Assembly: GCA_011620245.1 (NCBI GenBank)
Contig: WOZN01000354.1
Location: forward strand, 1-14,888
DNA: 14,888 nt
DNA from: Acidovorax sp.
GTDB taxonomy: Bacteria > Pseudomonadota > Gammaproteobacteria > Burkholderiales > Burkholderiaceae_C
Direction of reading: 5' to 3'
Positions 2 through 12,036 of the stretch are shown piece by piece (the first letter of the stretch is position 1; the number at the start of each line of letters is the position of its first letter). The position numbers and the translations under genes are program-made. Below the pieces are notes generated by a model, which saw only the letters and a list, made by a program, of their open reading frames with translations, had not been told where the DNA came from and did not search any database.

Positions 2-343
2 TTGCAACTGACCTGCCAGATGAATGCGCCCGACGCCTTGCACCTGCCAGAGCCTGCGGCCATTGCCGTGTTTCGTATTTTCCAGGAGATGTTGAGCAAC
101 GTGGGTCGCCATGCGCAGGCCAGTGCCATCGACGTTGCCATCGACGTGCAGGACGAGCAGCTGCAATTGCGCGTGCGTGACAACGGGGTGGGCGCCACTC
201 GCCAGGCCCTGGAGGCGCCCACCGCCTATGGCGTGATGGGCATGCGCGAGCGGGCGCGGCAGCTCGGTGGCCGGTTGAGCATCACCAGCGAGCCGGGCCA
301 GGGTTCGTGCCTGCAATTGCTGATTCCACTGGAGCTGCCATGA
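2..343 (+). CDS. Sensor histidine kinase, C-terminal part (NarX/DegS type, partial)
   Basis: This is the 3' end of a gene that starts before the window; the first complete codon is at base 2 and about 113 residues are visible. They form the ATP-binding (HATPase_c) domain of a two-component sensor kinase. The N-box helix holds Asn33 in FQEMLSNVGRHA, the G1 box is DNGVG (residues 60-64), and the G2-like motif is YGVMGMRER (76-84). The short domain with GMRER-type spacing is typical of the NarX/DegS/UhpB class, whose partners are LuxR-type regulators. The stop codon overlaps the start of the next gene in an ATGA arrangement, so the two are probably translationally coupled and form one signalling pair. 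The sensor and dimerisation parts lie outside the window, so the signal is unknown. Confidence 0.88.
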   Translation: MQLTCQMNAPDALHLPEPAAIAVFRIFQEMLSNVGRHAQASAIDVAIDVQDEQLQLRVRDNGVGATRQALEAPTAYGVMGMRERARQLGGRLSITSEPGQGSCLQLLIPLELP

Positions 344-1029
344 ATTCCGTCATTCGTGTATTGATTGGGGACGACCACCGCATCGTGCGCGAAGGCCTCA
401 AGCAGGTGCTGGGAGATCCGGCCAATGGACAGCCCGAGATGGTGGTGGTGGCAGAGGCCACCCAGGGCCGCGAAGTGCTGGAGCAGGTGGCCGCACTGCA
501 GGGCACGCAGGGGCTGGACCTCGTGCTGCTGGATATCGCCATGCCGGGCATGGATGGTCTCGAAGTGCTGCAGGCGCTGCGCAAGGCCCGGCCCGTTCTG
601 CCGGTGCTCATGCTCAGCACTTACCCCGAGCGGCAGTATGCCGTGCGCTGCATCCAGATGGGCGCGGCCGGTTATCTGCACAAGAGTGCCGATCCCGACG
701 ATATGGTGGCCGCCGTGCGCAAGGTGGCGGCAGGCGGCCTCTACCTGGCGGAGGCCACGGCCCTGGCCCTGGCCGGTGCGGTGGAGCGCACCGGCGTGGT
801 GCGTGCCGCCCAGCAGGGCATGCCAGCCGGGGTGGATGCGCTCTCGTACCGGGAGCACCAGGTGTTCCGCCTGCTCACGGCGGGGCACAGCGTCAGCGAA
901 ATTGGTGCACAGCTCATGCTTGCGCCCAACACGGTGAGTACCTATCGCGCCCGCATCCTCGAAAAGACCGGCGCGCGCAACGACGTGGAGCTGGCACTAC
1001 TGGCGCGCGGTGGCACAACAACACACTGA
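340..1029 (+). CDS. NarL/LuxR-family response regulator
   Basis: This is a 229-residue DNA-binding response regulator, the probable phosphoacceptor of the kinase encoded just upstream. The receiver domain (about 1-125) has the acidic pair Asp11-Asp12, the phosphorylation site Asp65 in LVLLDIAMPGMDG, and the conserved Lys115 in GYLHKS. A LuxR-type helix-turn-helix follows (about 168-225) with the SYREHQVFRLL, SEIGAQL and NTVSTYRARI segments of the family. I chose ATG 340 because it overlaps the kinase stop (ATGA) and begins directly at the beta1 strand; an in-frame ATG at 307 would add 11 residues inside the kinase gene. The cyanate operon begins 145 bases downstream on the same strand, so control of it by this pair is possible, but no binding site shows it. 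Confidence 0.9.
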   Translation: MNSVIRVLIGDDHRIVREGLKQVLGDPANGQPEMVVVAEATQGREVLEQVAALQGTQGLDLVLLDIAMPGMDGLEVLQALRKARPVLPVLMLSTYPERQYAVRCIQMGAAGYLHKSADPDDMVAAVRKVAAGGLYLAEATALALAGAVERTGVVRAAQQGMPAGVDALSYREHQVFRLLTAGHSVSEIGAQLMLAPNTVSTYRARILEKTGARNDVELALLARGGTTTH

Positions 1030-1174
1030 TTTGCAGCCCCTGCGCGCCGTTTTGTAGTGTTGCCCCTACACGCTGTAGACATTGCCCCCGCGAAATGGGG
1101 CCGCCGGGCCGGTGCCGGCCGAACCTGGCCCGCGATTTGCGTAATGCATGGCACCAACTTCTGCAAGGTGTGCC
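1030..1174 (+). promoter_or_regulatory. Intergenic leader of the cyanate operon
   Basis: This 145-base gap separates the response regulator from the binding-protein gene and probably carries the operon promoter. It contains two small perfect inverted repeats, CTACA-CGC-TGTAG (1066-1078) and GGCCGG-TG-CCGGCC (1107-1120), and an AAGGTG ribosome-binding site at 1165-1170 that supports the ATG at 1175. I see no convincing -35/-10 pair and no well-spaced sigma-54 site. The inverted repeats could be regulator sites or leader hairpins; this is only positional inference. Confidence 0.35.
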
Positions 1175-2581
1175 ATGTCCGAATTCTTCTCGCCTTTCGA
1201 CGCCGACCGTCCGCTGATGCTCAAGTGCAGCTGCGGTCGTGACCACACAGCGGCCGACCACCATGCCGAGGTGTCGGCTGACGCCGCAGCCGCCACTCTG
1301 CGCCAGCGCAGCCTGACCAGCGAGTTCGAGGCCTACAGCAACGAGTTCATCGAGGCCACGCTGGTCAAGGCCCTCTTTCCGCAAGACGCGGTGCGCCGCC
1401 GCTTCCTGAAAGCCGTGGGCAAAAGTACGGCCATGGCGGCCATTGCCAGTGTGCTGCCGATGGCCAGCATGCAGGCCATGGCGCAGGAGAAACAAGGCGC
1501 GCTGGAGAAGACCAACCTCAAAATCGGATTCATCCCGATCACCTGTGCCACGCCGCTGATCATGGCTCACCCGCTGGGCTTCTACCAAAAGCAGGGCCTG
1601 AACGTGGAGGTGACGAAGACGGCTGGCTGGGCGCTGATCCGCGACAAGATGATGAACAAGGAGTACGACGCCACGCATTTCCTGTCGCCCATGCCGCTCG
1701 CGATCTCGATGGGTCTCGGCTCCAATGCCATGCCGATGAATGTGGCGACCATTCAAAACGTTAACGGGCAGGCGATCACCTTGGCCCTCAAGCACAAGAA
1801 CAACCGCGATCCGAAAAACTGGAAGGGCTTCAAGTTCGCGATTCCGTTCGAGTACAGCATGCACAACTTCTTGTTGCGCTATTACCTGTCCGAAGCGGGC
1901 TTGAACCCTGATACCGAGGTGCAGCTGCGCGTGGTGCCCCCGGCCGAGATGGTGGCCAACCTGCGCGCGGGCAACATCGATGGCTTCCTCGGGCCAGATC
2001 CATTCAACCAGCGTGCGGTGTACGAGGAAGCAGGTTTCATCCACTTGCTCACCAAGGACCTGTGGAACGGTCACCCTTGCTGCGCCTTTGGTACCAGCAC
2101 CGAGTTCATCCAGAAGAACCCCAACACCTTTGCGGCGCTGTACCGCGCCGTTCTCATATCGGCCGCCATGGCGCGCGACCCGGCCAATCGCGAACTGATT
2201 GCCAAGGTGATCTCTCCACAGGCGTATCTGAACCAGCCAGAGGCGGTGGTGGCGCAGGTGTTGACTGGAAAATTTGCGGATGGTCTGGGTAAGATCCAGA
2301 ACGTACCCGACCGTGTCGATTTTGATCCGATGCCTTGGCAGAGCATGGCCGTGTGGATGCTCACGCAGATGCAGCGGTGGGGTTACGTCAAGGGCGATGT
2401 GAACTACAAGCAGATCGCCGAGAAGGTGTTTTTGATCACCGACGCCAAGAAGCACATGAAGGCGTTGGGTCAGAAGGTGCCGGACGGCGCCTATCCAAAG
2501 TTCAAAATAATGGGCAAGGAGTTTGACCCCACCAAGGCCGCTGAATACGCGGCCGGCTTCCCGATCCGAAAGGCAGGCTGA
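1175..2581 (+). CDS. cynA: NrtA/CmpA/CynA-family ABC transporter substrate-binding protein, Tat-exported
   Basis: This 468-residue protein is the periplasmic binding component of a nitrate/bicarbonate/cyanate-type ABC importer. The mature domain begins near residue 104 and shows family signatures such as LKIGFIPITCATPLIMA, the AGWALIRDKM segment, and LRAGNIDGFLGPDPFNQRA. Cyanate is inferred as ligand because the same operon ends in cyanase; nitrate or nitrite remain possible, so the symbol is context-based. Export looks Tat-dependent: RRRFLKAVG at residues 74-82 precedes a hydrophobic stretch ending in AMA. Unusually, about 73 residues precede the twin arginines and include a Cys/His cluster (Cys18, Cys20, His24, His29, His30). 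ATG 1175 is preferred over the in-frame ATG at 1148 because AAGGTG lies 4 bases upstream of it. The permease gene follows after one base. Confidence 0.85.
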   Translation: MSEFFSPFDADRPLMLKCSCGRDHTAADHHAEVSADAAAATLRQRSLTSEFEAYSNEFIEATLVKALFPQDAVRRRFLKAVGKSTAMAAIASVLPMASMQAMAQEKQGALEKTNLKIGFIPITCATPLIMAHPLGFYQKQGLNVEVTKTAGWALIRDKMMNKEYDATHFLSPMPLAISMGLGSNAMPMNVATIQNVNGQAITLALKHKNNRDPKNWKGFKFAIPFEYSMHNFLLRYYLSEAGLNPDTEVQLRVVPPAEMVANLRAGNIDGFLGPDPFNQRAVYEEAGFIHLLTKDLWNGHPCCAFGTSTEFIQKNPNTFAALYRAVLISAAMARDPANRELIAKVISPQAYLNQPEAVVAQVLTGKFADGLGKIQNVPDRVDFDPMPWQSMAVWMLTQMQRWGYVKGDVNYKQIAEKVFLITDAKKHMKALGQKVPDGAYPKFKIMGKEFDPTKAAEYAAGFPIRKAG

Positions 2582-2582
2582 T

Positions 2583-3449
2583 ATGGGCAGCACCCGCAAC
2601 CTCAACGTCCGCGCTGGCGTGCTGTCAGTGCTGATCCTGATGGCGCTGCTGGGCATCTGGTATGTCGCGACCGCCAACTCGGGGCCCGCGAACACCCTGG
2701 CCGGCATGACCGCCGAACAGATCGAGTACGCCAAGATGATGGGCAAGGACCCAGGTACCACCAAGAGCGATGGCTTTCCCACACTGGCCGACATGGGGGC
2801 CACCACCTGGGGGCATCTATCCAACCCGTTTTACGACAACGGGCCCAACGACAAGGGCGTGGCGCTGCAACTGGGGTATTCGCTGGCGCGCGTGGCGCTG
2901 GGTTTCGGTTTCGCCTGCCTGGTGGCGATACCGCTGGGTTTCATCATCGGAATGTCGCCGTTGTTGCGCCGTGCGTTCGACCCGTTCATCCAGGTGCTCA
3001 AGCCCATCAGCCCGCTGGCGTGGATGCCGCTGGCGCTCTACACCATCAAAGACTCGTCGATCTCGGGCATCTTCGTGATTTTCATCTGCTCGGTGTGGCC
3101 CATGCTGGTGAATACGGCGTTTGGCGTGGCCTCGGTCAAGCGCGAGTGGCTCAATGTGTCGGCCACGCTGCAGGTCAACCCGCTGCGCAAGGCTTTCCTG
3201 GTGATCCTGCCCGCTGCGGCGCCCACCATCCTCACGGGCATGCGCATCAGCATGAGCATTGCCTGGCTGGTGATCGTGGCCGCCGAGATGCTGGTGGGCG
3301 GCACAGGCATCGGCTACTTCGTGTGGAATGAGTGGAACAACCTGTCGCTGACCAACGTGATCTTCGCCATCTTGGTGATTGGTGTGGTGGGCATGCTGCT
3401 CGACCTCGCTTTTGGGCAACTCCAGAAGGCGGTGACCTATGTGGAGTGA
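2583..3449 (+). CDS. cynB: NrtB/CynB-type ABC transporter permease
   Basis: This 288-residue inner-membrane permease would form the translocation channel of the importer. A first membrane helix (about 11-30) is followed by a long polar stretch (about 31-95) and then helices near 98-122, 141-180, 203-238 and 255-277. The BPD-transporter (EAA-type) loop that contacts the ATPase is in the region EWLNVSATLQVNPLRKAF (188-205), followed by the family pattern LPAAAPTILTGMRIS. Length and pattern match the nitrate/cyanate permease family. ATG 2583 lies one base after the binding-protein stop; an upstream in-frame ATG at 2523 would overlap that gene by about 60 bases and add 20 non-membrane residues. 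The 3' end overlaps the ATPase gene by 11 bases. The cyanate assignment comes from the neighbouring cynS. Confidence 0.85.
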   Translation: MGSTRNLNVRAGVLSVLILMALLGIWYVATANSGPANTLAGMTAEQIEYAKMMGKDPGTTKSDGFPTLADMGATTWGHLSNPFYDNGPNDKGVALQLGYSLARVALGFGFACLVAIPLGFIIGMSPLLRRAFDPFIQVLKPISPLAWMPLALYTIKDSSISGIFVIFICSVWPMLVNTAFGVASVKREWLNVSATLQVNPLRKAFLVILPAAAPTILTGMRISMSIAWLVIVAAEMLVGGTGIGYFVWNEWNNLSLTNVIFAILVIGVVGMLLDLAFGQLQKAVTYVE

Positions 3450-4308
3450 CGTGACCCATCGCACATCCGCTGCCTCCGATGCAAGCGGTGCGCCGCAACG
3501 AAAGGTTTCTGCCGTGAACGGTTTTCTCCAGATTGAAAGGCTCAGCAAGGCCTACGTCCCCACCAAACCGGTGTTTACCGATTTGTCGTTTGCGCTCGAC
3601 AAGGGCGAATTCGTTTGCATCATCGGCCATTCGGGCTGCGGCAAGACCACTATCCTCAACGTGCTGGCGGGGCTCGATACTGCCACCTCGGGTAACGTCA
3701 TCATGGACGGGCACGAGATCTCCGGCCCGAGCCTCGACCGTGGAGTGGTATTCCAGAGTCACGCACTCATGCCCTGGCTGACGGTGCGCCAGAACATCGC
3801 TTTTGCCGTCAAGTCGCGCTGGCCCGATTGGAAGAAGGCGCAGGTCGATGCCCATGTAGAGAAGTTCGTCGCGCTGGTGAGCCTGTCGCCTGCTATCGAC
3901 AAGAAGCCCTCGCAGCTGTCGGGTGGCATGAAGCAGCGCGTAGGCATTGCGCGGGCGTTCTCCATACAGCCCAAGATGCTGCTGCTCGACGAGCCCTTCG
4001 GCGCGCTCGATGCTCTCACGCGCGGCACTATTCAGGACGAGTTGATGGCCATCGTGCGCCAGACGCAGCAGACGGTGTTCATGATCACCCACGACGTGGA
4101 CGAAGCCGTCCTGCTAGCCGACCGCATCCTGCTCATGAGCAACGGCAACGAGACGCCCGAGGGCTACCGCCCCGGTGGCATCGCCGAGGTGGTGGTCAAC
4201 CCACTGCCGCGCGAACGCACGCGCACCAGCCTGCACCACCTGGACGGCTACTACGCGCTGCGCAACCACATCGTGGACTTCCTGGTGACCCGTGCAAAAG
4301 CCCACTGA
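3439..4308 (+). CDS. cynD: NrtD/CynD-type ABC transporter ATP-binding protein
   Basis: This is the 289-residue ATPase subunit that would drive the importer. All ABC motifs are present: Walker A GHSGCGKT (63-70), Q-loop Gln106, signature LSGGMKQR (160-167), Walker B MLLLDEP (180-186), D-loop GALDALTR and switch His218. The C-terminal [17 protein letters not shown] region resembles nitrate/cyanate-type ATPases. There is no binding-protein-like domain fused at the C terminus, so it is the NrtD/CynD form and not the NrtC form. Two starts are possible: ATG 3439, overlapping the permease gene by 11 bases, or GTG 3514 with AAAGG eight bases upstream, which would remove 25 low-complexity residues. 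The second gives a conventional N terminus; I keep the longer form with that caveat. Confidence 0.85.
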
Positions 4309-4330
4309 ACGCATCCGACCGTAAGCCCTA

Positions 4331-4356
4331 CCCTGCCGCCCTTCTGGGCGGCAGGG
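4331..4356 (+). terminator. Perfect 11-bp hairpin between the ATPase gene and cynS
   Basis: CCCTGCCGCCC (4331-4341) and GGGCGGCAGGG (4346-4356) form a perfect 11-bp stem with a TTCT loop, 22 bases after the ATPase stop. There is no T-run after it, so it is a poor intrinsic terminator. A partial terminator, or an mRNA-stabilising or processing element that sets a different cynS level, is plausible. Confidence 0.5.
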
Positions 4357-4421
4357 AGGACCACACCCTGAATTTCTTTGTCCCGCTGTTTCAAAACCAC
4401 CCCAACCAAGGTGCCATCACC

Positions 4422-4865
4422 ATGAACCGCAACGACGTCACTGAAAAAATCATCAGCACCAAGGTCGCCAAGGGCCTGCAATGGGAAGCCATTGCCGAGA
4501 AGGTCGGCCAGTCCAAGGAATGGACCACGGCCCTGTGCCTGGGCCAGATGACGGCCACGCCCGAGCAGGCCATGATCGTGGGCAAGATCTTCGGCCTGAC
4601 GGCCGAGGAGCAAAAGTGGCTGCAGGTCGCGCCCTACAAGGGCTCGCTGCCTACGTCCGTGCCCACCGACCCGCTGATCTACCGCTGGTACGAAGTGGTG
4701 AGCGTGTATGGCACCACCATCAAGGAGCTGATCCACGAAGAGTTTGGCGACGGCATCATGAGCGCCATCGACTTCAGCATAAACATCCAGCGCGAAGCCA
4801 ATCCCAATGGCGACCGTGTGAACGTGGTGCTGTCGGGCAAGTTCTTGCCCTACAAGCAGTACTAA
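4422..4865 (+). CDS. cynS: Cyanase (cyanate hydratase)
   Basis: This 147-residue cytoplasmic enzyme decomposes cyanate with bicarbonate to carbon dioxide and carbamate, which breaks down to ammonium. Length is close to the E. coli enzyme. An N-terminal helical domain (about 1-80) precedes the catalytic domain with DPLIYRWYE and FGDGIMSAIDF. By alignment with the known cyanase triad (Arg96, Glu99, Ser122 in E. coli), the active-site residues are Arg88, Glu91 and Ser114, all present. ATG 4422 is chosen because AAGGTG lies eight bases upstream and the product then has the standard length; the frame stays open much further upstream but only as the shadow of the ATPase gene. It follows the importer genes after 113 bases containing a strong hairpin, matching the cynABD-cynS layout described in cyanobacteria. 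Confidence 0.96.
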   Translation: MNRNDVTEKIISTKVAKGLQWEAIAEKVGQSKEWTTALCLGQMTATPEQAMIVGKIFGLTAEEQKWLQVAPYKGSLPTSVPTDPLIYRWYEVVSVYGTTIKELIHEEFGDGIMSAIDFSINIQREANPNGDRVNVVLSGKFLPYKQY

Positions 4866-4893
4866 CCCCCCTGAGTCGCTTTGCGCCTCTTTC

Positions 4894-4925
4894 CGCTTTC
4901 CGAATTACTCGCAATTCGGGAAGCG
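4894..4925. terminator. Hairpin downstream of cynS
   Basis: CGCTTTCCGAATT (4894-4906) and AATTCGGGAAGCG (4913-4925) form a 13-bp stem with one G-T wobble and a 6-base loop, 28 bases after the cynS stop. No T-tract follows on either strand. It lies between cynS and a convergent pseudogene, so it may end transcription from either side. Confidence 0.5.
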
Positions 4926-4941
4926 AGATACCGCCAGCGCA

Positions 4942-4997
4942 CGCCAGTGAAACGCTGCTGCGCAGCTTCGGCAGCCCTTGCACGGCGGTCACTGGCG
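4942..4997. repeat. Inverted repeat with internal hairpin
   Basis: CGCCAGTGA (4942-4950) is repeated in inverted orientation as TCACTGGCG (4989-4997). The enclosed 38 bases contain further self-complementary GCTGC/GCAGC tracts. It could be an extragenic palindromic element or part of the terminator zone between the convergent genes. I cannot tell whether it recurs in the genome. Confidence 0.4.
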
Positions 4998-5027
4998 GGT
5001 GGCTGCGCCTGTTGCTGAGGTTGCCCC

Positions 5028-5595
5028 TTACGCCGCCTTCCAGAAGATGTAGTCGGCTTGGTACTTCACGATCTGGCGCTCGCGCCCTTGTTGGCCGTTG
5101 TGCAGGCGGCCGCAGGGGCTACGCCGCCCTTCAAGGCCACGCGCTGGATGAAGGTGACACCACTCATGGAGCCCATGCCCATGGCCGGGTTGGCCTTGAC
5201 CAGTTGGCAGCGCAGGTTGTCCATGCCGGATGGCGCCACGGCCAACTGGGTGGCGTTCAGCTTGGAGCCGTCCTTCGATTCCCAGGTGGCAGGTGGGCCA
5301 TAGTAGGTGTCCACGGGCTTGTTGCCACGGCCTTGGGGCCTACGAACACCCGTTCGGTCTGGTCGGGCATGTTGGCCTTGTTGCGGCATTCGTAGGTGAT
5401 CTCGCCCACGCCCACGGTCTCCATGGCAACCTTGTTGCCTGCAGGCACCTTGATGGCGTCGGGCGGGCTGTCCTGAGAGAACATGGGCTGGGCGGGCGAC
5501 GACATCATCGAGCCGCAGGCGGTCAGCAATACGGCGGCAGCAACTGCACCGGTCAGGGGGATCAGGAAGTGGAGGGTGGACGGTGTGGTGTTCAC
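5028..5595 (-). pseudogene. DUF3455-family lipoprotein, broken by two frameshifts
   Basis: Reading from 5595 down, GTG (the next in-frame start upstream is TTG 5625) opens a lipoprotein signal ending in the lipobox LLTACGS. The segment VPAGNKVAMETVGVGEITY then follows, as I recall for the DUF3455 family. Near 5328-5331 the frame shifts just after VFVGPKA, where several residues seem deleted. The second frame carries GNKPVDTYYGPPATWES and VKANPAMGMGSMSGVTFIQR down to NKG. Near 5079-5086 it shifts again, apparently by a two-base GC addition, and the third frame completes RQIVKYQADYIFWKAA with TAA at 5030-5028. All three frames are needed to cover the family, so no complete product can be made unless the window has sequence errors. 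The function of the family is unknown to me. Confidence 0.78.
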
Positions 5596-5706
5596 TGTGT
5601 CGGTGGGTTGAAAAGGCAGCAGCAACTTGCGCTGCCGCTGTGATTACTCACCAAAACGCTAATTGGATTCAGCCGGGTGCAAGTTTTTTCGCAGTCCGCC
5701 TTTGGA

Positions 5707-5907: not shown

Positions 5908-7239
5908 TCAATGCAGTGTCAGCGGACGGGTGGTGGTCTTCACCCGCACCACGGCAGAGCGGTGCTCATAGGGGCTGGCGCCCTGGCCCAGCACTGCAGC
6001 GGCCAGGGTGCGCGCCTGCCGGGCAATCGGTTCGATGAAGCGGCTGCATTGCCCGTCGATGCTGATGCAGTCGCCCAGTGCATGGATGCCGGGCACGCTG
6101 GTCTGCAGCGTGCTTGGGTCCACAGCAATGCCATTGGCCCAATTGAGTCCTGCACTCTGCGCCAAGCGGTTGGGGGGCAGCAGGCCTGTGGCCACCACCA
6201 CTTCGTCGGCCGCAAAATGTTGCCCGCTGCTGGTGGTGACGCGGTAGCACGACCCCACGCGCTCCACCTGCTGCACCTGCAGGCCGCCCTCGAAGCGGAT
6301 GGACAGATCTTTCCAGGCATCCAGTAACTGCGACCCCGCCTGCTGGTCCTGCCAGCGCGCCAGCGGCTCTGCGGCGGTGTCCAGCAGCGTGATGCGGTGG
6401 CCGCCCAGCGCTAGGTCGTTGGCCAGCTCGCTGCCCACCAGGCCCGCGCCGATAATGAGCACGTCCCTGGGCTGGCCGCCCAACTGTTGCCACAGGCGCT
6501 GGTAGGCGTCCAGGTGGTTGATGCGCCAGCACATGTGGGGCGAGAGGCCGGGGGGTAGGGCGGCCTGTGCACCATGGGCCAGCACCAAGTGGCCGTAGCG
6601 CAGCGTGCCCCGGGTGGTGCGCAGCCGGCGCGTGTCGGCGCAGATGCGCACGGCGTGGGTGTGGGCCAGCAGAGTGACGCCCAGGCGCTGGGCGGCATCG
6701 CGGCCGGTTTCGGACACCAGCGCCTGCGGGTCCAGCTGCCGCGCCATGGCCACCGACAGCAAGGGCTTGTCGTACCGGTCGCCTGCGCACGCGGTGACCA
6801 GGGTGATGGGCAGCGTGGCGCTGTGCTGACGCAGGGTCTCGGCCAGTTGCCAGCCTGCGCGGCCTGCGCCGACGATGACCACACCCGGCTCGCTGCGTGG
6901 CCGGATGGAGGGCGCGGTCGTGCCGGCTTGCGCCTTGAGTGCTTCCACTGTGGGGGCTTGATAAAGCGAAAAATCGGCCTTGGTCACCCCACACAAGGGG
7001 CAGGCCCAGTCATCAGGAATGTCGACCAGCCGCGTGCCGGGTGGCAGGCCGCCATCGGGGTCGCCATCGGCCTCATTGTAGATATAGCCGCAGGCATTGC
7101 AGATGTAGCTTTCCCAGGGTGCCAGGGCAGCCCCGTCGGCCATATCGGCCCCATTGGTGAACGCATTGCACAGCGCCTGCGAAGCCGCGCTCAATGTAAA
7201 GTCGGAAGCAGCCAGAGGCGTGGGGGCGGCGAGGGTCAT
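5908..7239 (-). CDS. Rubredoxin fused to FAD/NAD(P)-dependent rubredoxin reductase
   Basis: This 443-residue protein combines an electron carrier and its reductase. A rubredoxin domain (about 45-90) has the iron ligands Cys47, Cys50, Cys80 and Cys83 in CNACGYIY and CPLCGV. It is followed by a two-dinucleotide-fold flavoprotein with FAD motif VIVGAGRAG (121-129), NAD(P) motif [11 protein letters not shown] (261-271) and C-terminal FAD motif GIHALGDC (384-391), as in AlkT-type rubredoxin reductases. It should pass electrons from NAD(P)H to a partner oxidase or flavoprotein. The start is ATG 7239, overlapping the TGA of the preceding flavoprotein gene (ATGA); the open frame continues 57 codons upstream only as a shadow of that gene. 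This coupling suggests the acyl-CoA-dehydrogenase-like protein is the redox partner, which is inference. Confidence 0.86.
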
Positions 7240-8393
7240 GCAGGCATCTCCTCGGCGCTGAGCCGGGCGATCTCTTTGCGCAGATGCTTGATGGCAGGCG
7301 TGACGATGGCCACAAAGTGCGACTCGCGCACGCGCCGCTGAACCTCCGAACTCATGAGGTAGCCGCGTGCGCCCTGGTGCATCAGGGCCGACTGGGCGGC
7401 GCGCAGGCACAGCTCGGCGCCGTGGGCGCGGGCGTCCAGCACGTCAATGAAAAATTCGGTGCCCGTATCGAACGGGGTCTGGGCCAGTTGCATGACGCGT
7501 GCGGTCAGCACATCCAGTTCGGCCTGTAAGGCATCCGGCCGGTCTTCAAGGAACTGATTCACGTGGCCCAACTGCGCCTCCACCGCCCACATCGAGTCGA
7601 TGGCGCCCTGCGTGATGCCCACGGCCATGCCACATTGCAGCATCACAAACGCAGCGCGGATGCGTGCGATGAAGGGGCGTGTGGGGTCGGCCATGATCTC
7701 GGCCGTGCTGATGAAATGGTCCTTGAGCCGCAGCGCATAGGTGCCCGTGCCCTCCATGGCCGAGAAACTGGGGCATTCGCGCATCTCTACGCCAGGGACA
7801 CCGCAGCGTAGCAGGAACATCACCTCGCGGTTGTTGTTGCTGGCATTTGCCTCCACCACGGCCGCAATCGCGCCGCAGTAGTGGTCGGGCCCCAGGTTGC
7901 TCACCCAGGGCAGGGTGCCGTTGACGAGGTAGCCGCCATCCACCGGCGTGGCCTTGAGCAGCAGGCTTTCGATCTGCGCGTAGCTCTTCATGGGGTTGGA
8001 TAGCGCCGTGCCGCCCATGCCCGTGCCGCTGGCGTGGCGCTGCAGCACATCGCCCATTAGCGCTGGGTTGCCGGACTGCTGCAGGTACAGTCCACATACC
8101 GCCTGGCACCACATCATGAAGCCGGTGGCGCCGCACACGCGCGAGGCCTCGGCCATTGCGCGGATGGCCAAGCCATAGTCGGCCGGGCCGGCGGTGCTGT
8201 CCAAGTGCGCGCTCATCGCGCCCACTGCGGCCAGCTGCTGCAGCTCGGCGCAGGGGTAGTAGCCGGTGCGGTCAATCGCCTCCACCTGCGCGGCCAGCGG
8301 GCCCTGGGCAATGGTGCGCACGGCGGCCAGCAGCGCATCGCCGCGCAGGGCGCCTTTTAGGTGGAGTTGGGGTGGGAGGTCGGCGGGGTTCAT
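7236..8393 (-). CDS. Acyl-CoA-dehydrogenase-fold flavoprotein, atypical active site
   Basis: This 385-residue protein has the acyl-CoA dehydrogenase architecture: an N-terminal helical domain (1-125), a beta domain with [10 protein letters not shown] and [14 protein letters not shown] (about 126-168) and a C-terminal helical domain with [18 protein letters not shown]. In classical dehydrogenases a YEGTxxIQR segment near the C terminus supplies the catalytic Glu; here the matching stretch reads [15 protein letters not shown] (360-374) and I see no Glu at that place. That favours another flavin chemistry, such as a class D monooxygenase like DszC or SfnB-type sulfur enzymes, but this is inference, and some true dehydrogenases place the base elsewhere. 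ATG 8393 has AAGGAG just upstream. It lies 44 bases after the OsmC-like gene and overlaps the rubredoxin-reductase gene. Confidence 0.75.
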
Positions 8394-8437
8394 GGGGCTC
8401 CTTGGATGCGCGGGGCGGACTCGATGGCGGTGGGCTC

Positions 8438-9007
8438 TTAGTCCGCGAGGCTGATTTCGAAGGGGATGGGGTTGCGCATGGTGTTGGCCACCGGCGAGTA
8501 GAAGTTGGCGTGCTGCACGATCTCATTGAGCACCTCGCGCGGCGCATCGCCCTCCACCAGCACCTTCACGCGGATCGCCTGAAAGCCCATTTCGGCGGGC
8601 AGCTTCTGCAGCGCGCCACCCGCACCCCAGGCGGCCGGGTTGCCGATGTCGCCTTCCATGAAGATCTCGATCTTGCTGAGCTTGACCTGCTTCCAGGTGG
8701 CCACGGCCGTGATGCCCACAGCCAGGCAGCCGCCCAGGCCCGACAGCACGATTTCGCCGGGCGCGGGCGCCGTGTCCTGGCCGAAGAGGTGCAGCGGCTC
8801 GTCCACCACCACGGGGGCGTGATTTCCCACATAGCTCAGCGAGCGGTACTGGCCCTCCATCACCGTGTGAACCTTGTTGGTGCCCCGGCTGGCGGGGTTG
8901 CTGCGGCCCTTGTCGGCAAAGGTCATCAGCCCCTCGCGGTCGATGGGGCGCAGGTACGTGGTGATGGTGGTGACGGGGGCAGAGGGTTCCAGCAGATCGG
9001 TGGACAT
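8438..9007 (-). CDS. OsmC-family protein with a single conserved cysteine
   Basis: This 189-residue protein has the OsmC/Ohr fold pattern: VHTVMEGQYRSLSYVGNHAPVVVDEP near 47-71, then the central helix SGLGGCLAVGITAVATWK with Cys94, then KLSKIEIFMEGDI. OsmC and Ohr peroxidases use two cysteines, the second usually in an HxxCPV-like segment. Here the aligned segment is HANFYSPVANTM (about 167-177) with Phe-Tyr in place of that Cys, and Cys94 is the only cysteine in the protein. A thiol peroxidase cycle is therefore unlikely; a sulfur-carrier, thiol-binding or persulfide role would fit its place directly after a sulfurtransferase gene, but that is inference. ATG 9007 is preferred because AAGGA lies upstream; a longer open frame reaches 9088 without such support. 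It is 87 bases from the preceding gene. Confidence 0.82.
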   Translation of the reverse strand: MSTDLLEPSAPVTTITTYLRPIDREGLMTFADKGRSNPASRGTNKVHTVMEGQYRSLSYVGNHAPVVVDEPLHLFGQDTAPAPGEIVLSGLGGCLAVGITAVATWKQVKLSKIEIFMEGDIGNPAAWGAGGALQKLPAEMGFQAIRVKVLVEGDAPREVLNEIVQHANFYSPVANTMRNPIPFEISLAD

Positions 9008-9094
9008 GGTTTTCCTTGGTGATAAATGGGTTGAGCTGAGAAAGGGAGGAGGGGTCTGAAGAGGGCCACGCCCGCTGCAGAGATGCACTGGGGC

Positions 9095-9994
9095 TCAGGC
9101 CGCCAGCGCCAGGGCGGGCTTCTTGGGGAACTTAACCAGCGGCAGGCCGCTTTCAATGGGCAACTTGTCGTCGCGCGACCATTCGTTCCACGAGCCGAAA
9201 TACATGCGCACATCGGCAAAGCCCGCCTGCCTGAGGGCGAGGAAGGTGTTGGACGCGCGCGCGCCCTTGAAGCAGTACAGGTACACCGTGTCGCTGGGGC
9301 TGATGCCTGCGGTGGCGCATTCGGCGCGCACTTCGTCGGGCGACTTGAAGACCGGACCCTGGGCCGACGGCTTCATGAAGCGGTACCACTCCACCCATTT
9401 GGCGCCGGGTAGGCGGCCCTTGCGGGGCGCGAAGTCCTTGCCGTAGGGGCTGGAGCTGTCGCCAATCCACTCGTCCACATCCCGTACGTCCAGCAGCACG
9501 GTGTCGGTGCCCAGGGCCTCGATCACGTCCTCTTTGGTCACCATCGCGTCGGTGGTGACCAGTTGGGTGGGGAAGATGGCCGGTGTGGGCACTACGGCCT
9601 CGGTAGTGACGGGCAACTCAGCCGCCTTCCAGGCCGAGTAGCCGCCATTGAGCACCTTGACCTTGGGGTAGCCAAGCCAAGTCAACAGGTAGTAGCCCCG
9701 GCACGATTGGCCGTAGCCGCTGTTCAGCGCGTCTTCATAGAACACCGCCGTCTCGGCGCCCGACAGGCCAATCGCGCCCAGGTGAGCGGCAAAGGTGTCC
9801 TTGAGTTCCTGTAGCCCCTGGGGCGTGGAGGTGGCCAGGTACGTGAAGGTCTCGCGCAGGTTCACCGCGCCGGGGATGTGCCCCAGCGCATAGGTGTCAG
9901 CGTCGCGGGTGTCGATCAGCACCACAGGCTCTGCGGCTTGCAGGGCCTGCAACTGGGTGGGCGAGATAAGGACGGCGTCGGAATCGGTGCTCAT
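9095..9994 (-). CDS. Two-domain rhodanese-type sulfurtransferase
   Basis: This 299-residue protein is a tandem rhodanese of the thiosulfate/3-mercaptopyruvate sulfurtransferase type. The N-terminal domain (about 8-130) has VVLIDTRDADTYALGHIPGA and VLNGGYSAW; the C-terminal catalytic domain (about 150-290) has VLLDVRDVDEW, RLPGAKWVEW and the active-site loop YCFKGARASN with Cys241. The loop is CFKGAR, neither the classical rhodanese CRKGVT nor the mercaptopyruvate CGSGVT type, so the donor and acceptor cannot be read from it. No signal peptide is visible, suggesting a cytoplasmic protein. It is the first gene of the operon: a sigma-54 promoter ends 48 bases upstream of its ATG and AAAGG precedes the start. 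Cyanide-to-thiocyanate conversion is a known rhodanese activity, but nothing here shows it is the role. Confidence 0.87.
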   Translation of the reverse strand: MSTDSDAVLISPTQLQALQAAEPVVLIDTRDADTYALGHIPGAVNLRETFTYLATSTPQGLQELKDTFAAHLGAIGLSGAETAVFYEDALNSGYGQSCRGYYLLTWLGYPKVKVLNGGYSAWKAAELPVTTEAVVPTPAIFPTQLVTTDAMVTKEDVIEALGTDTVLLDVRDVDEWIGDSSSPYGKDFAPRKGRLPGAKWVEWYRFMKPSAQGPVFKSPDEVRAECATAGISPSDTVYLYCFKGARASNTFLALRQAGFADVRMYFGSWNEWSRDDKLPIESGLPLVKFPKKPALALAA

Positions 9995-10042: not shown

Positions 10043-10057
10043 GCAATAGGTGTGCCA
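10043..10057 (-). promoter_or_regulatory. Sigma-54 (-24/-12) promoter of the sulfurtransferase operon
   Basis: On the minus strand the sequence reads TGGCAC-ACCTA-TTGC, an exact match to the sigma-54 core TGGCAC-N5-TTGC with the required GG-to-GC spacing. The predicted transcript start is near 10031, giving a leader of about 37 bases before ATG 9994. The gene immediately upstream encodes a sigma-54-dependent activator, which independently supports the call. Confidence 0.85.
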
Positions 10058-10195: not shown

Positions 10196-10218
10196 TGTGT
10201 CTACAAATTGTTGACACA
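10196..10218. promoter_or_regulatory. 23-bp palindrome, probable upstream activator site
   Basis: The sequence has the form TGTGTC-T-ACAA-A-TTGT-T-GACACA; twenty of 23 positions obey dyad symmetry, and the exceptions are the centre and one symmetric pair. Its centre is about 176 bases upstream of the predicted start of the sigma-54 transcript, the usual range for enhancer-like activator sites. The likely ligand is the GAF/AAA+/Fis activator encoded next door. It does not match the NifA site TGT-N10-ACA. Confidence 0.7.
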
Positions 10219-10374: not shown

Positions 10375-12036
10375 CTATTTGATTCCGGCTTTACGCAGCC
10401 GATAGCTGAACTGCCGAAGCGTCAACCCCAGGCTTTGCGCCGCGCGCGACTGGTTGCCGTGGTGTTTGGCCAGCGCGGCCTGCAGCACTTGGACGCTGTG
10501 GGATTGGGCTGGGTGGTAGTCGCGCACCAGCGGCGCCGGGCTGGCGTTGGGGTGAGCCGCCGCATCGTTCGGCGGTGCGGGAGGCAAATGCGCAGACGCA
10601 GCGGGCAGAAACCGGTCCAGCTCACCACGCGTCACCAGCGTGCCATTGGCCAGCAGCACCAGGCGCTCGATCAGATTGCCCAGCTCGCGGATGTTGCCGG
10701 GCCAGGGGTGTTCTTCCAGCCGGGCCAGCGCGTCGGGCGACAGGTTCACGTTGCGCTGGTGCGCCTGGTTGGCGCGGCTCACAAAGTGCAGCGCCAGCGC
10801 ACGGATGTCTTCACGCCGCTCGGCCAGCGAAGGCAGGCGGATGGGGATCACGTTGAGACGGTAGTACAGGTCTTGCCGAAAGTGGCCAACCTCCACCTCC
10901 TGCGCCAGGTCGCGGTTGGTGGCTGCGACCAGGCGCACATTGACCTTGACCTCGCGCTGCCCGCCCAGACGCACCAGCGTGCCCTCCTGCAGCGTGCGTA
11001 GCAGTTTGGACTGCATGGCCAGCGGCAGCTCGCCGATCTCGTCCAGAAAGATGGTGCCGCTGTCGGCCTGCTCGAACCAGCCCGCGCGCGCAGTGCTGGC
11101 GCCCGTGAAGGCGCCTTTTTCGTAGCCGAACAGTTCGGACTCGAAAAGCGCGTCCGGAATGGCCGAGCAGTTGACCTTGATGAAGGGCCGGTCGCGCCGC
11201 CCGCTGGCCAGGTGCACCGCGCGCGCAAACAGCTCCTTGCCTGTGCCTGACTGGCCCAGCAGCAGCACGGTGGCCTGGGTTTGTGACACGCGCTCCAGTT
11301 CGCTTAGCGCCTGCAGCAGCGCGGGCGAGCTGCCAATGAGCCCGTAGCGCGCGCTTTTGGTGTTGAGCGCGTTGGCCAGCACGGCGTTGCGCGCCTCCAG
11401 TTGTCGCGTCTGCTCGGCCACCAGTGCTTCGAGCTGCAAGAGTTGCCCCACCAGCGTGGCCAGCACGCGCAGCACGGCCAGGTCGTCGTTCAGGTGGCGC
11501 TGCCGGCTGCGGATGCGGTGACAGGCTAGCACGCCGATGGGCGCGTTGTTGACTTCGATGGGTAGCGCGATGAAGGCCACCGTCTCGGGCGGCAGCTGGC
11601 TGCGGACCACCGCGCGGGCCAGGAACAAGGGCTCGGCATCGATGTCCTGCACGATGGCGGGCTGCCCGGTGGCCAGCACGCGGCCCGTGATGCCCTCGCC
11701 CCAGGCATAGCGGCCGCGCGCCACTTCGGCCTGGGTGAGTCCGTAGGCCTGCTGGATGGAGGCGCTGCGCAGCGCGCCGGCCTTGGCGGGGGCTTCATCC
11801 ACCAGCACGATGCGCCCCCGGTTCAGGCCCAGCAACTCGCTCATCAGGTGCAACATCTCGCGCAGCACCAGGCCGGGCGCCAGGCTGCGGCCGATGAGGC
11901 GCATCACCTCGCGCATCAGCAGCAACTCTTGCGCGTGCCAGTCGGTGGGGCTGTGCGACCGGGCCGCGCTGGAGAGGGAGGACGGGGGCGGTGGGGGCAT
12001 GCCCAGGGCGACTGCAAGTTCTGCGCCCGGGTGCAT
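10375..12036 (-). CDS. Sigma-54-dependent transcriptional activator (GAF-AAA+-Fis)
   Basis: This 553-residue enhancer-binding protein activates RNA polymerase with sigma-54. A GAF sensory domain (about 40-205) is joined by a coiled linker (about 200-225) to an AAA+ domain with Walker A GQSGTGKE (261-268), the sigma-54 contact loop GAFTGA (308-313), Walker B TIFLDE (328-333) and the [14 protein letters not shown] segment (445-458). A Fis-type helix-turn-helix (about 515-552) ends the protein. The GAF-first layout resembles NifA, but no nif genes are present, and there is no receiver domain, so it probably responds to a small molecule or redox signal. ATG 12036 is taken; Met13 at 12000 is an alternative. 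It lies upstream of, and in the same direction as, the operon with an exact sigma-54 promoter, its presumed target. It diverges from purT across 62 bases. Confidence 0.9.

Follow-up and report, generated by a model that had tools for sequence, protein, structure and literature searches.

Gene content of the window

The window analysed here was a stretch of 14,888 nucleotides from Acidovorax sp. (contig WOZN01000354.1; genome G000, a 2.5 Mb assembly that was 72% complete). Its central element was a module of four minus-strand genes that ran head to tail and encoded a sulfurtransferase, an OsmC-family thiol protein, a flavoprotein of the acyl-CoA dehydrogenase (ACAD) fold and a fusion of rubredoxin with its reductase, in this order. 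The sulfurtransferase and OsmC genes were 87 bases apart, the OsmC and flavoprotein genes 44 bases apart, and the flavoprotein and fusion genes shared an ATGA overlap (7239-7236). A response regulator, a CynABD/NrtA-type ATP-binding cassette (ABC) transporter and a cyanase (307-4865) were convergent to the module and lay beyond its 3' end. The features were as follows.

9095-9994, minus strand: two-domain sulfurtransferase of the rhodanese family, motif CFKGAR (two PF00581 stretches)
8438-9007, minus strand: OsmC-family protein with a single cysteine, Cys94 (PF02566, 74 bits)
7236-8393, minus strand: ACAD-fold flavoprotein without the helix-G Glu, the proposed thiocyanate-attacking enzyme (only PF02771 scored)
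5908-7239, minus strand: fusion of rubredoxin and pyridine-nucleotide (NAD(P)H:rubredoxin) reductase (PF00301, 70 bits; PF07992, 149 bits)
10375-12036, minus strand: NifA-like sigma-54 activator with GAF, AAA+ and Fis-type helix-turn-helix domains (domain matches, NCBIfam)
10043-10057, minus strand: sigma-54 promoter TGGCAC-N5-TTGC, TGGCACACCTATTGC (exact pattern)
10196-10218, no strand: inverted repeat TGTGTC-N11-GACACA read from the sequence, a possible activator binding site
1148-4308, plus strand: CynABD/NrtA-type ABC transporter (binding protein 1148-2581, permease 2523-3449, ATPase 3439-4308)
4422-4865, plus strand: cyanase, cynS (NF002773, 224 bits; TIGR00673, 167 bits; both above the cut-off)
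307-1029, plus strand: LuxR/NarL-type (NarL/UvrY-like) response regulator upstream of the transporter, a possible second regulator

A first-pass annotation of the window had described four head-to-tail genes, the last two with an ATGA overlap, behind one exact sigma-54 promoter and next to a GAF-type activator. The coordinates and domain matches confirmed this gene arrangement, and the promoter and the adjoining activator were found as described. The genomic context had been missed, namely that a cyanate-type transporter and a cyanase adjoined the module.

Conservation of the module

The module was compared across 101 loci, which comprised the best 80 of 179 relatives from named genomes, 13 stretches from a class sample and 8 of 28 matches from a plasmid collection (loci and genomes are cited below by L and G numbers). 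A partner gene was counted when its BLAST match reached at least 30% identity over 60% of the query; since the flanks end, partner counts were lower bounds. Wherever upstream sequence was available (98 loci), a thiol protein directly preceded the flavoprotein; the remaining three of the 101 loci started at a contig edge. This thiol protein was OsmC in 89 loci and an AhpD-like peroxidase-related protein in nine, and never both. A rubredoxin-reductase-type or related reductase followed the flavoprotein in at least 95 of the 101 loci (within 600 bases in 93), and cyanase was located beside the module in at least 53. The nearest module loci were mostly from Acidovorax, and the flavoproteins of the first six were 92-95% identical to that of the window. 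The type strains A. facilis DSM 649 and A. delafieldii DSM 64 had the module as well (L001, L003).

The four genes were not equally bound: the core consisted of the thiol protein (OsmC or AhpD-like) and the flavoprotein. Co-occurrence of all four genes and the activator, as the first-pass annotation had envisaged, was borne out for the core pair and the promoter, but the sulfurtransferase was found in 54 of the 101 loci, a lower bound. Overall, the module was real and widely conserved behind a sigma-54 promoter, in Acidovorax and in many other Proteobacteria.

Promoter and activator

The promoter TGGCACACCTATTGC (10057-10043) was located 48 bases ahead of the sulfurtransferase ATG. It was the single exact TGGCACN5TTGC in the window, where the chance mean was 0.14 and 27 of 200 shuffles contained one, so that this site alone was weak evidence. 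The assignment became strong because the promoter was conserved: TGGCA[CT]N5TTGC was found ahead of the first gene in 74 of the 89 OsmC-type loci, against a mean of 0.4 in shuffled regions with a looser pattern. One of these 89 upstream regions was empty, two began at OsmC where the contig cut the sulfurtransferase, and the shuffles preserved base composition only. The inverted repeat, with one base per arm relaxed, occurred in 17 of the 89 upstream regions versus 0.0 in shuffles.

The best NCBIfam match of the activator was NifA with 459 bits, below the cut-off of 529, and the protein was therefore considered NifA-like rather than NifA. Control of nitrogen fixation, which such an activator might suggest, was dropped for the same reason. 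An activator relative (at least 30% identity) was present in at least 67 of the 101 module loci, a count that may take in other sigma-54 activators. In the Pseudomonas system as described, expression of cynABDS depends on the sigma-54 activator CynF, with cyanate and ammonium as controlling signals (PMC6627978); CynF was likened to the activator of the window by this description, not by sequence comparison. A relative of the response regulator was present in 26 of 80 loci. In the window, the end of a histidine kinase gene (recognised by eye) and the response regulator gene (1-1029) preceded the transporter and may control it apart from the sigma-54 activator.

The ACAD-fold flavoprotein

The predicted model of the flavoprotein (52-row alignment, pLDDT 91.9, pTM 0.92) had the ACAD fold. 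Its Foldseek/VIA rows were acyl-CoA dehydrogenases and their relatives, a list from which the absence of oxygenase families does not exclude them. The helix-G Glu, which we take to be the catalytic residue of the isovaleryl-CoA dehydrogenase type, was present in all 15 generic ACADs of the class sample, versus a gap at this place in the printed rows of the flavoprotein family. At the C-terminal position, all 52 family members had Thr365 instead of Glu. We assume that this position corresponds to the catalytic Glu of the short-chain type (SCAD), by extending the alignment to SCAD beyond its end. The invariant residues of the family included His63, Cys87, Thr90, Trp95, Gln97, Tyr103, His277, Asn279, His339 and Lys369.

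In structural alignments the flavoprotein was 13-22% identical to acyl-CoA dehydrogenases and to 3-sulfinopropionyl-CoA desulfinase, and it differed from them in lacking the helix-G Glu and in having its private invariant Cys/His/Trp set. As far as can be read from sequence, the absence of Glu and the private invariants argue against acyl-CoA dehydrogenation and for another flavin chemistry, the kind of which we infer below. An acyl-CoA or sulfinate-CoA enzyme set was dropped from consideration because the catalytic Glu was absent from the family. This family was large: when 8,000 candidates were scored against one query, 5,322 reached E <= 1e-60, and the named members of the family were listed as acyl-CoA dehydrogenase, AidB-like or hypothetical.

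Thiol protein, sulfurtransferase and reductase

The OsmC domain contained the reactive Cys, and Cys94 and Ser171 were invariant in 90 of 90 sequences. Position 171 presumably corresponds to that of the resolving Cys in the Ohr/OsmC motif, and with Ser in all 90 sequences a second, resolving Cys was absent. The lone conserved Cys would suit an acceptor of sulfur or of the SCN group. The sulfurtransferases formed one subfamily, with 60-63% identity to the window protein in the four distant loci compared (L116, L118, L130, L131).

The fusion in the window had both CxxC pairs of rubredoxin and the FAD/NAD(P) domain. Across the 41 module loci scanned, rubredoxin was found in 26, including three (L133, L155, L156) without a detected reductase. 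The reductase domain of the window was nearest to Pseudomonas aeruginosa rubredoxin reductase and to NorW, its score of 230 bits being below the NorW cut-off of 392. A NorVW-like nitric oxide system was rejected on this ground and because no flavodiiron protein was present among the ten window proteins scanned. The supply of electrons through rubredoxin and its reductase and the handling of sulfur by the thiol protein and the sulfurtransferase, both suggested by the first-pass annotation, fitted the conserved gene set.

Association with cyanase and cyanate-type transport

In the class sample of 369 genomes, 14 had the flavoprotein (E <= 6e-44, the next genome being at 2e-17). Cyanase was encoded in 13 of these 14 genomes versus 38 of the 355 others (Fisher 2e-11; by genus 11 of 12); the Fisher tests used here treat genomes as independent, and three of the 14 shared a genus. 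The sole exception, G324, had the most diverged flavoprotein (33% identity). In a phylum sample, the flavoprotein was found in 16 of 398 genomes and cyanase in 13 of these 16 (G000, G107 and 11 of the other 14), a count that stands without a background rate. Two of the remaining three genomes had the AhpD-like type (L155, L156) and one the OsmC type (L151).

The set of CynABD-type transporter, cyanase and sigma-54 activator that was present in the window was found in one stretch in Caballeronia as well (L126). The Marinobacter plasmid pMAD49a carried a single run of transporter, sigma-54 activator, OsmC, ACAD, FAD oxidoreductase with rubredoxin, and cynS. The cynFABDS cluster of Pseudomonas pseudoalcaligenes CECT5344 is described with the same sigma-54 activator, CynABD transporter and cyanase as those beside the window module (PMC6627978). 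As described there, it differs in having no OsmC, flavoprotein, rubredoxin reductase or sulfurtransferase and in taking external cyanate (PMC6627978).

The plasmid pMAD49a, of Marinobacter shengliensis (L127), which carried the module together with transporter, activator and cyanase, was typed as conjugative, and the module may therefore move between bacteria. A solute-binding protein of L127 was encoded at 4376-5569. In some small genomes with the module a large gene was found near cyanase (L116, with similar long open reading frames in L118 and L119); by eye, the one in L116 resembled the inorganic-carbon transporter DabA.

A second transporter family common to thiocyanate hydrolase operons

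A second transporter family (SBP-II), whose binding protein was about 28% identical to that of the window, accompanied the core in loci of Marinobacter and of other Gamma- and Alphaproteobacteria. SBP-II was represented by 17 copies in 16 of the 369 genomes, with no match between 1e-122 and the cut-off of 1e-60. Eight of these copies were found with the flavoprotein, seven with the scn genes of thiocyanate hydrolase and two with neither; the G241 copy was assigned to a flavoprotein fragment by shared contig coordinates only. One genome (G055) had both kinds, one copy being linked to the flavoprotein and the other to scn. The scn-linked loci were L134-L139 and L142. The scn subunit of L137 matched the gamma subunit of Thiobacillus thioparus thiocyanate hydrolase (4.9e-131), and this subunit was 82-100% identical across the scn-linked SBP-II genomes. 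No flavoprotein, OsmC or rubredoxin of the module kind was found in these seven loci.

When 53 binding proteins were placed in a tree, those linked to scn formed a single group (99/99) inside SBP-II, which included 14 OsmC-linked copies as well; L122, L128, L140 and L141 were long branches of unsure placement. True scnC was present in nine genomes, one of which also had the flavoprotein (1 of 14 flavoprotein genomes); avoidance was not significant (Fisher 0.30). The window genome, at its 72% completeness, gave no scnC match.

Cyanase and a transporter of the NitT/TauT kind had already been described in the scn region of T. thioparus (Berben et al. 2017, PMC5328954). The present comparison adds that transporters related to this kind occur beside another set of enzymes, the T. 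thioparus transporter being likened by description. The 'COS pathway' of thiocyanate hydrolase (scnABC) from T. thioparus has the SBP-II family, and often cyanase, in common with the module (PMC5328954). The scnABC enzyme itself is different, a cobalt hydrolase of the nitrile hydratase family that yields COS and ammonia.

Several binding proteins were sometimes encoded beside the module, namely one of type I and one of type II in L117 and two of type I in L122; in such loci two anions could be taken up by separate routes. By eye, a cytochrome c-like gene was seen in L141, a locus that ends at the contig edge, and aprAB-like genes were located near the SBP-II gene of L140.

Proposed function

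We consider it fairly probable that the cluster serves the use of thiocyanate (SCN-) as a source of nitrogen, and perhaps of sulfur, under a sigma-54/NifA-type activator and through a route that has no relation to either of the two known enzymes. Thiocyanate as the substrate and nitrogen (perhaps also sulfur) assimilation as the probable purpose are suggested because cyanase and an NrtA/CynA-type transporter go with the system and because the second transporter family is common to thiocyanate hydrolase operons. The generic organosulfur or persulfide substrate of the first-pass annotation gives way here to thiocyanate, which the cyanase and transporter context makes likelier.

More tentatively, and as a possibility that we would not yet call probable, the module may represent a third, hitherto unrecognised biological way of breaking thiocyanate. 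It would depend on O2 and NADH and would combine a rubredoxin-fed ACAD-fold flavoenzyme with OsmC as the sulfur acceptor, releasing cyanate to cyanase. In this hypothesis, nitrogen shortage together with an inducer would switch on the sigma-54 promoter, and SCN- would be imported through the transporter of the NitT/NrtA family. The reductase and rubredoxin would relay electrons from NADH to the flavoprotein, where reduced flavin and O2 would oxidise the thiocyanate sulfur, putatively to a hypothiocyanite-like species. Cys94 of OsmC could then capture the sulfur as a thiocyanato or persulfide adduct, setting cyanate free. The sulfurtransferase would hand the sulfane sulfur on, and cyanase would convert cyanate to ammonia and CO2.

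The proposed 'cyanate pathway' of thiocyanate dehydrogenase (TcDH) in Thioalkalivibrio, Thiohalobacter and Guyparkeria would likewise convert SCN- to cyanate with transfer of sulfur to a carrier (PMC6504805, PMC5328954). In Guyparkeria and Thiohalobacter, whose genomes both have cyanase operons, the TcDH locus is described with a sigma-54 activator and with a thioredoxin-like protein proposed to accept the sulfur (PMC6504805). However, TcDH is described as a periplasmic copper beta-propeller that uses cytochrome c (PMC6504805, PMC5328954), whereas the enzyme of the module is a flavoprotein of the ACAD fold that works beside rubredoxin, a reductase and OsmC as the thiol protein in the proposed scheme and is apparently located in the cytoplasm, inspection by eye having shown no signal peptide. 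By analogy, the two would follow a parallel logic with unrelated enzymes.

Several observations weigh against thiocyanate use by this route. Rubredoxin was missing from 15 of the 41 loci scanned, including three of the four named alphaproteobacterial loci (Acetobacter L128 had it) and ten of the 12 outside the class; its place was taken by a protein of the ferredoxin-reductase type (L130, L144, L145) or by no recognisable counterpart. Some OsmC relatives had further Cys elsewhere, although these were not conserved. The AhpD-like variant had cyanase beside it in none of nine loci, and in two of ten genomes or records, and no cyanase was shown in the OsmC-type genomes G324, G381 and G551. Moreover, the presence of cyanase does not prove a cyanate pathway, as the sources on TcDH and thiocyanate hydrolase state (PMC6504805, PMC5328954). 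Eight of the nine AhpD-variant binding proteins in the tree formed a separate distant SBP-II group (branch 1.07), and L140 and L141 had SBP-II without flavoprotein or thiocyanate hydrolase. The transporter of the window was itself of the CynABD type, whose Pseudomonas namesake is described as linked to cyanate (PMC6627978). SBP-II was not found in the window genome (72% complete), and the shared core was therefore all that carried the thiocyanate link to Acidovorax.

The AhpD-like variant, some of whose flavoproteins were 77% identical to that of the window, was found in L049, L052, L056-L058, L071, L078, L129, L133, L155 and L156, including Neisseriaceae and Moraxella. Its substrate may differ from that of the OsmC type, as its separate SBP-II group suggests: either it acts on another anion, or the product of the flavoprotein may not be cyanate.

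Alternative explanations

A different starting compound was the first alternative. The module might oxidise cyanide (or a small organic cyanide, thiocyanate or isothiocyanate), with the rhodanese first making thiocyanate from cyanide and cyanase clearing the cyanate. The joint occurrence of a rhodanese-family protein and cyanase would agree with this, as would an ACAD fold that lacks the helix-G Glu and has private conserved residues. However, HCN needs no ABC transporter, while a binding protein of type I or II was present in at least 40 of the 63 full-length OsmC loci. The type II protein was common with thiocyanate hydrolase, an enzyme of inorganic SCN-, and the sulfurtransferase was not seen in 47 of the 101 loci, where flanks end. 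We regard cyanide oxidation as unlikely.

Oxidation of an organosulfur or persulfide compound unrelated to thiocyanate, as the first-pass annotation had it, would make cyanase and cyanate transport merely co-regulated nitrogen genes. The flavoprotein was weakly similar to 3-sulfinopropanoyl-CoA desulfinase and DszC, and SsuA/TauA-type models matched the binding proteins weakly, under the cut-off. Yet the cyanase association recurred in distant genomes, including Marinobacter, Acetobacter and Comamonadaceae, and seven of the nine SBP-II copies outside the module were located with scn genes, which leaves this explanation rather improbable.

It was very unlikely that the module served as a defence against hypothiocyanite, peroxide or cyanate-derived thiol damage, with an OsmC or AhpD-like peroxidase re-reduced via rubredoxin and the flavoprotein. 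Both kinds of partner were indeed thiol proteins, and the OsmC and AhpD families include peroxidases. On the other hand, Ser occupied the presumed resolving-Cys position in 90 of 90 OsmC sequences, and sigma-54/NifA-type control with an ABC importer fits a stress response poorly. Finally, the sulfurtransferase and the reductase were not always present, but a chance neighbourhood of redox genes without a single pathway was extremely improbable, since the thiol protein remained beside the flavoprotein in 98 of 98 testable loci and the promoter was kept in 74 of 89.

Implications of the proposed thiocyanate use

Heterotrophic bacteria belonging to several genera, Methylobacterium thiocyanatum among them, can reportedly obtain nitrogen from thiocyanate, and two enzymatic routes are known, by thiocyanate hydrolase and by TcDH (PMC5328954). 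In open-licence papers, we found no link of OsmC, rubredoxin, sulfurtransferase or ACAD genes to thiocyanate, and the terms 'thiocyanate oxygenase' and 'thiocyanate monooxygenase' were absent. Thiocyanate degradation itself is known; no description of the present enzyme set was found in such papers. If the module is the thiocyanate route of heterotrophs, it would offer a marker gene for a step by which a pollutant of mining and coking waste is degraded. A large protein family filed as generic acyl-CoA dehydrogenase would gain a function, and one more flavin enzyme would be added to those fed by rubredoxin.

Additional observations

Two minor observations concerned the plasmid collection and the window. 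Two chromosome-sized Neisseria gonorrhoeae records of about 2.17 Mb (NZ_CP119140.1 and NZ_CP119142.1) were listed in the plasmid collection. In the window, a lipoprotein-like gene on the minus strand (5066-5625) was apparently split across two frames in the assembly, and relatives of about 245 amino acids were found in seven loci.

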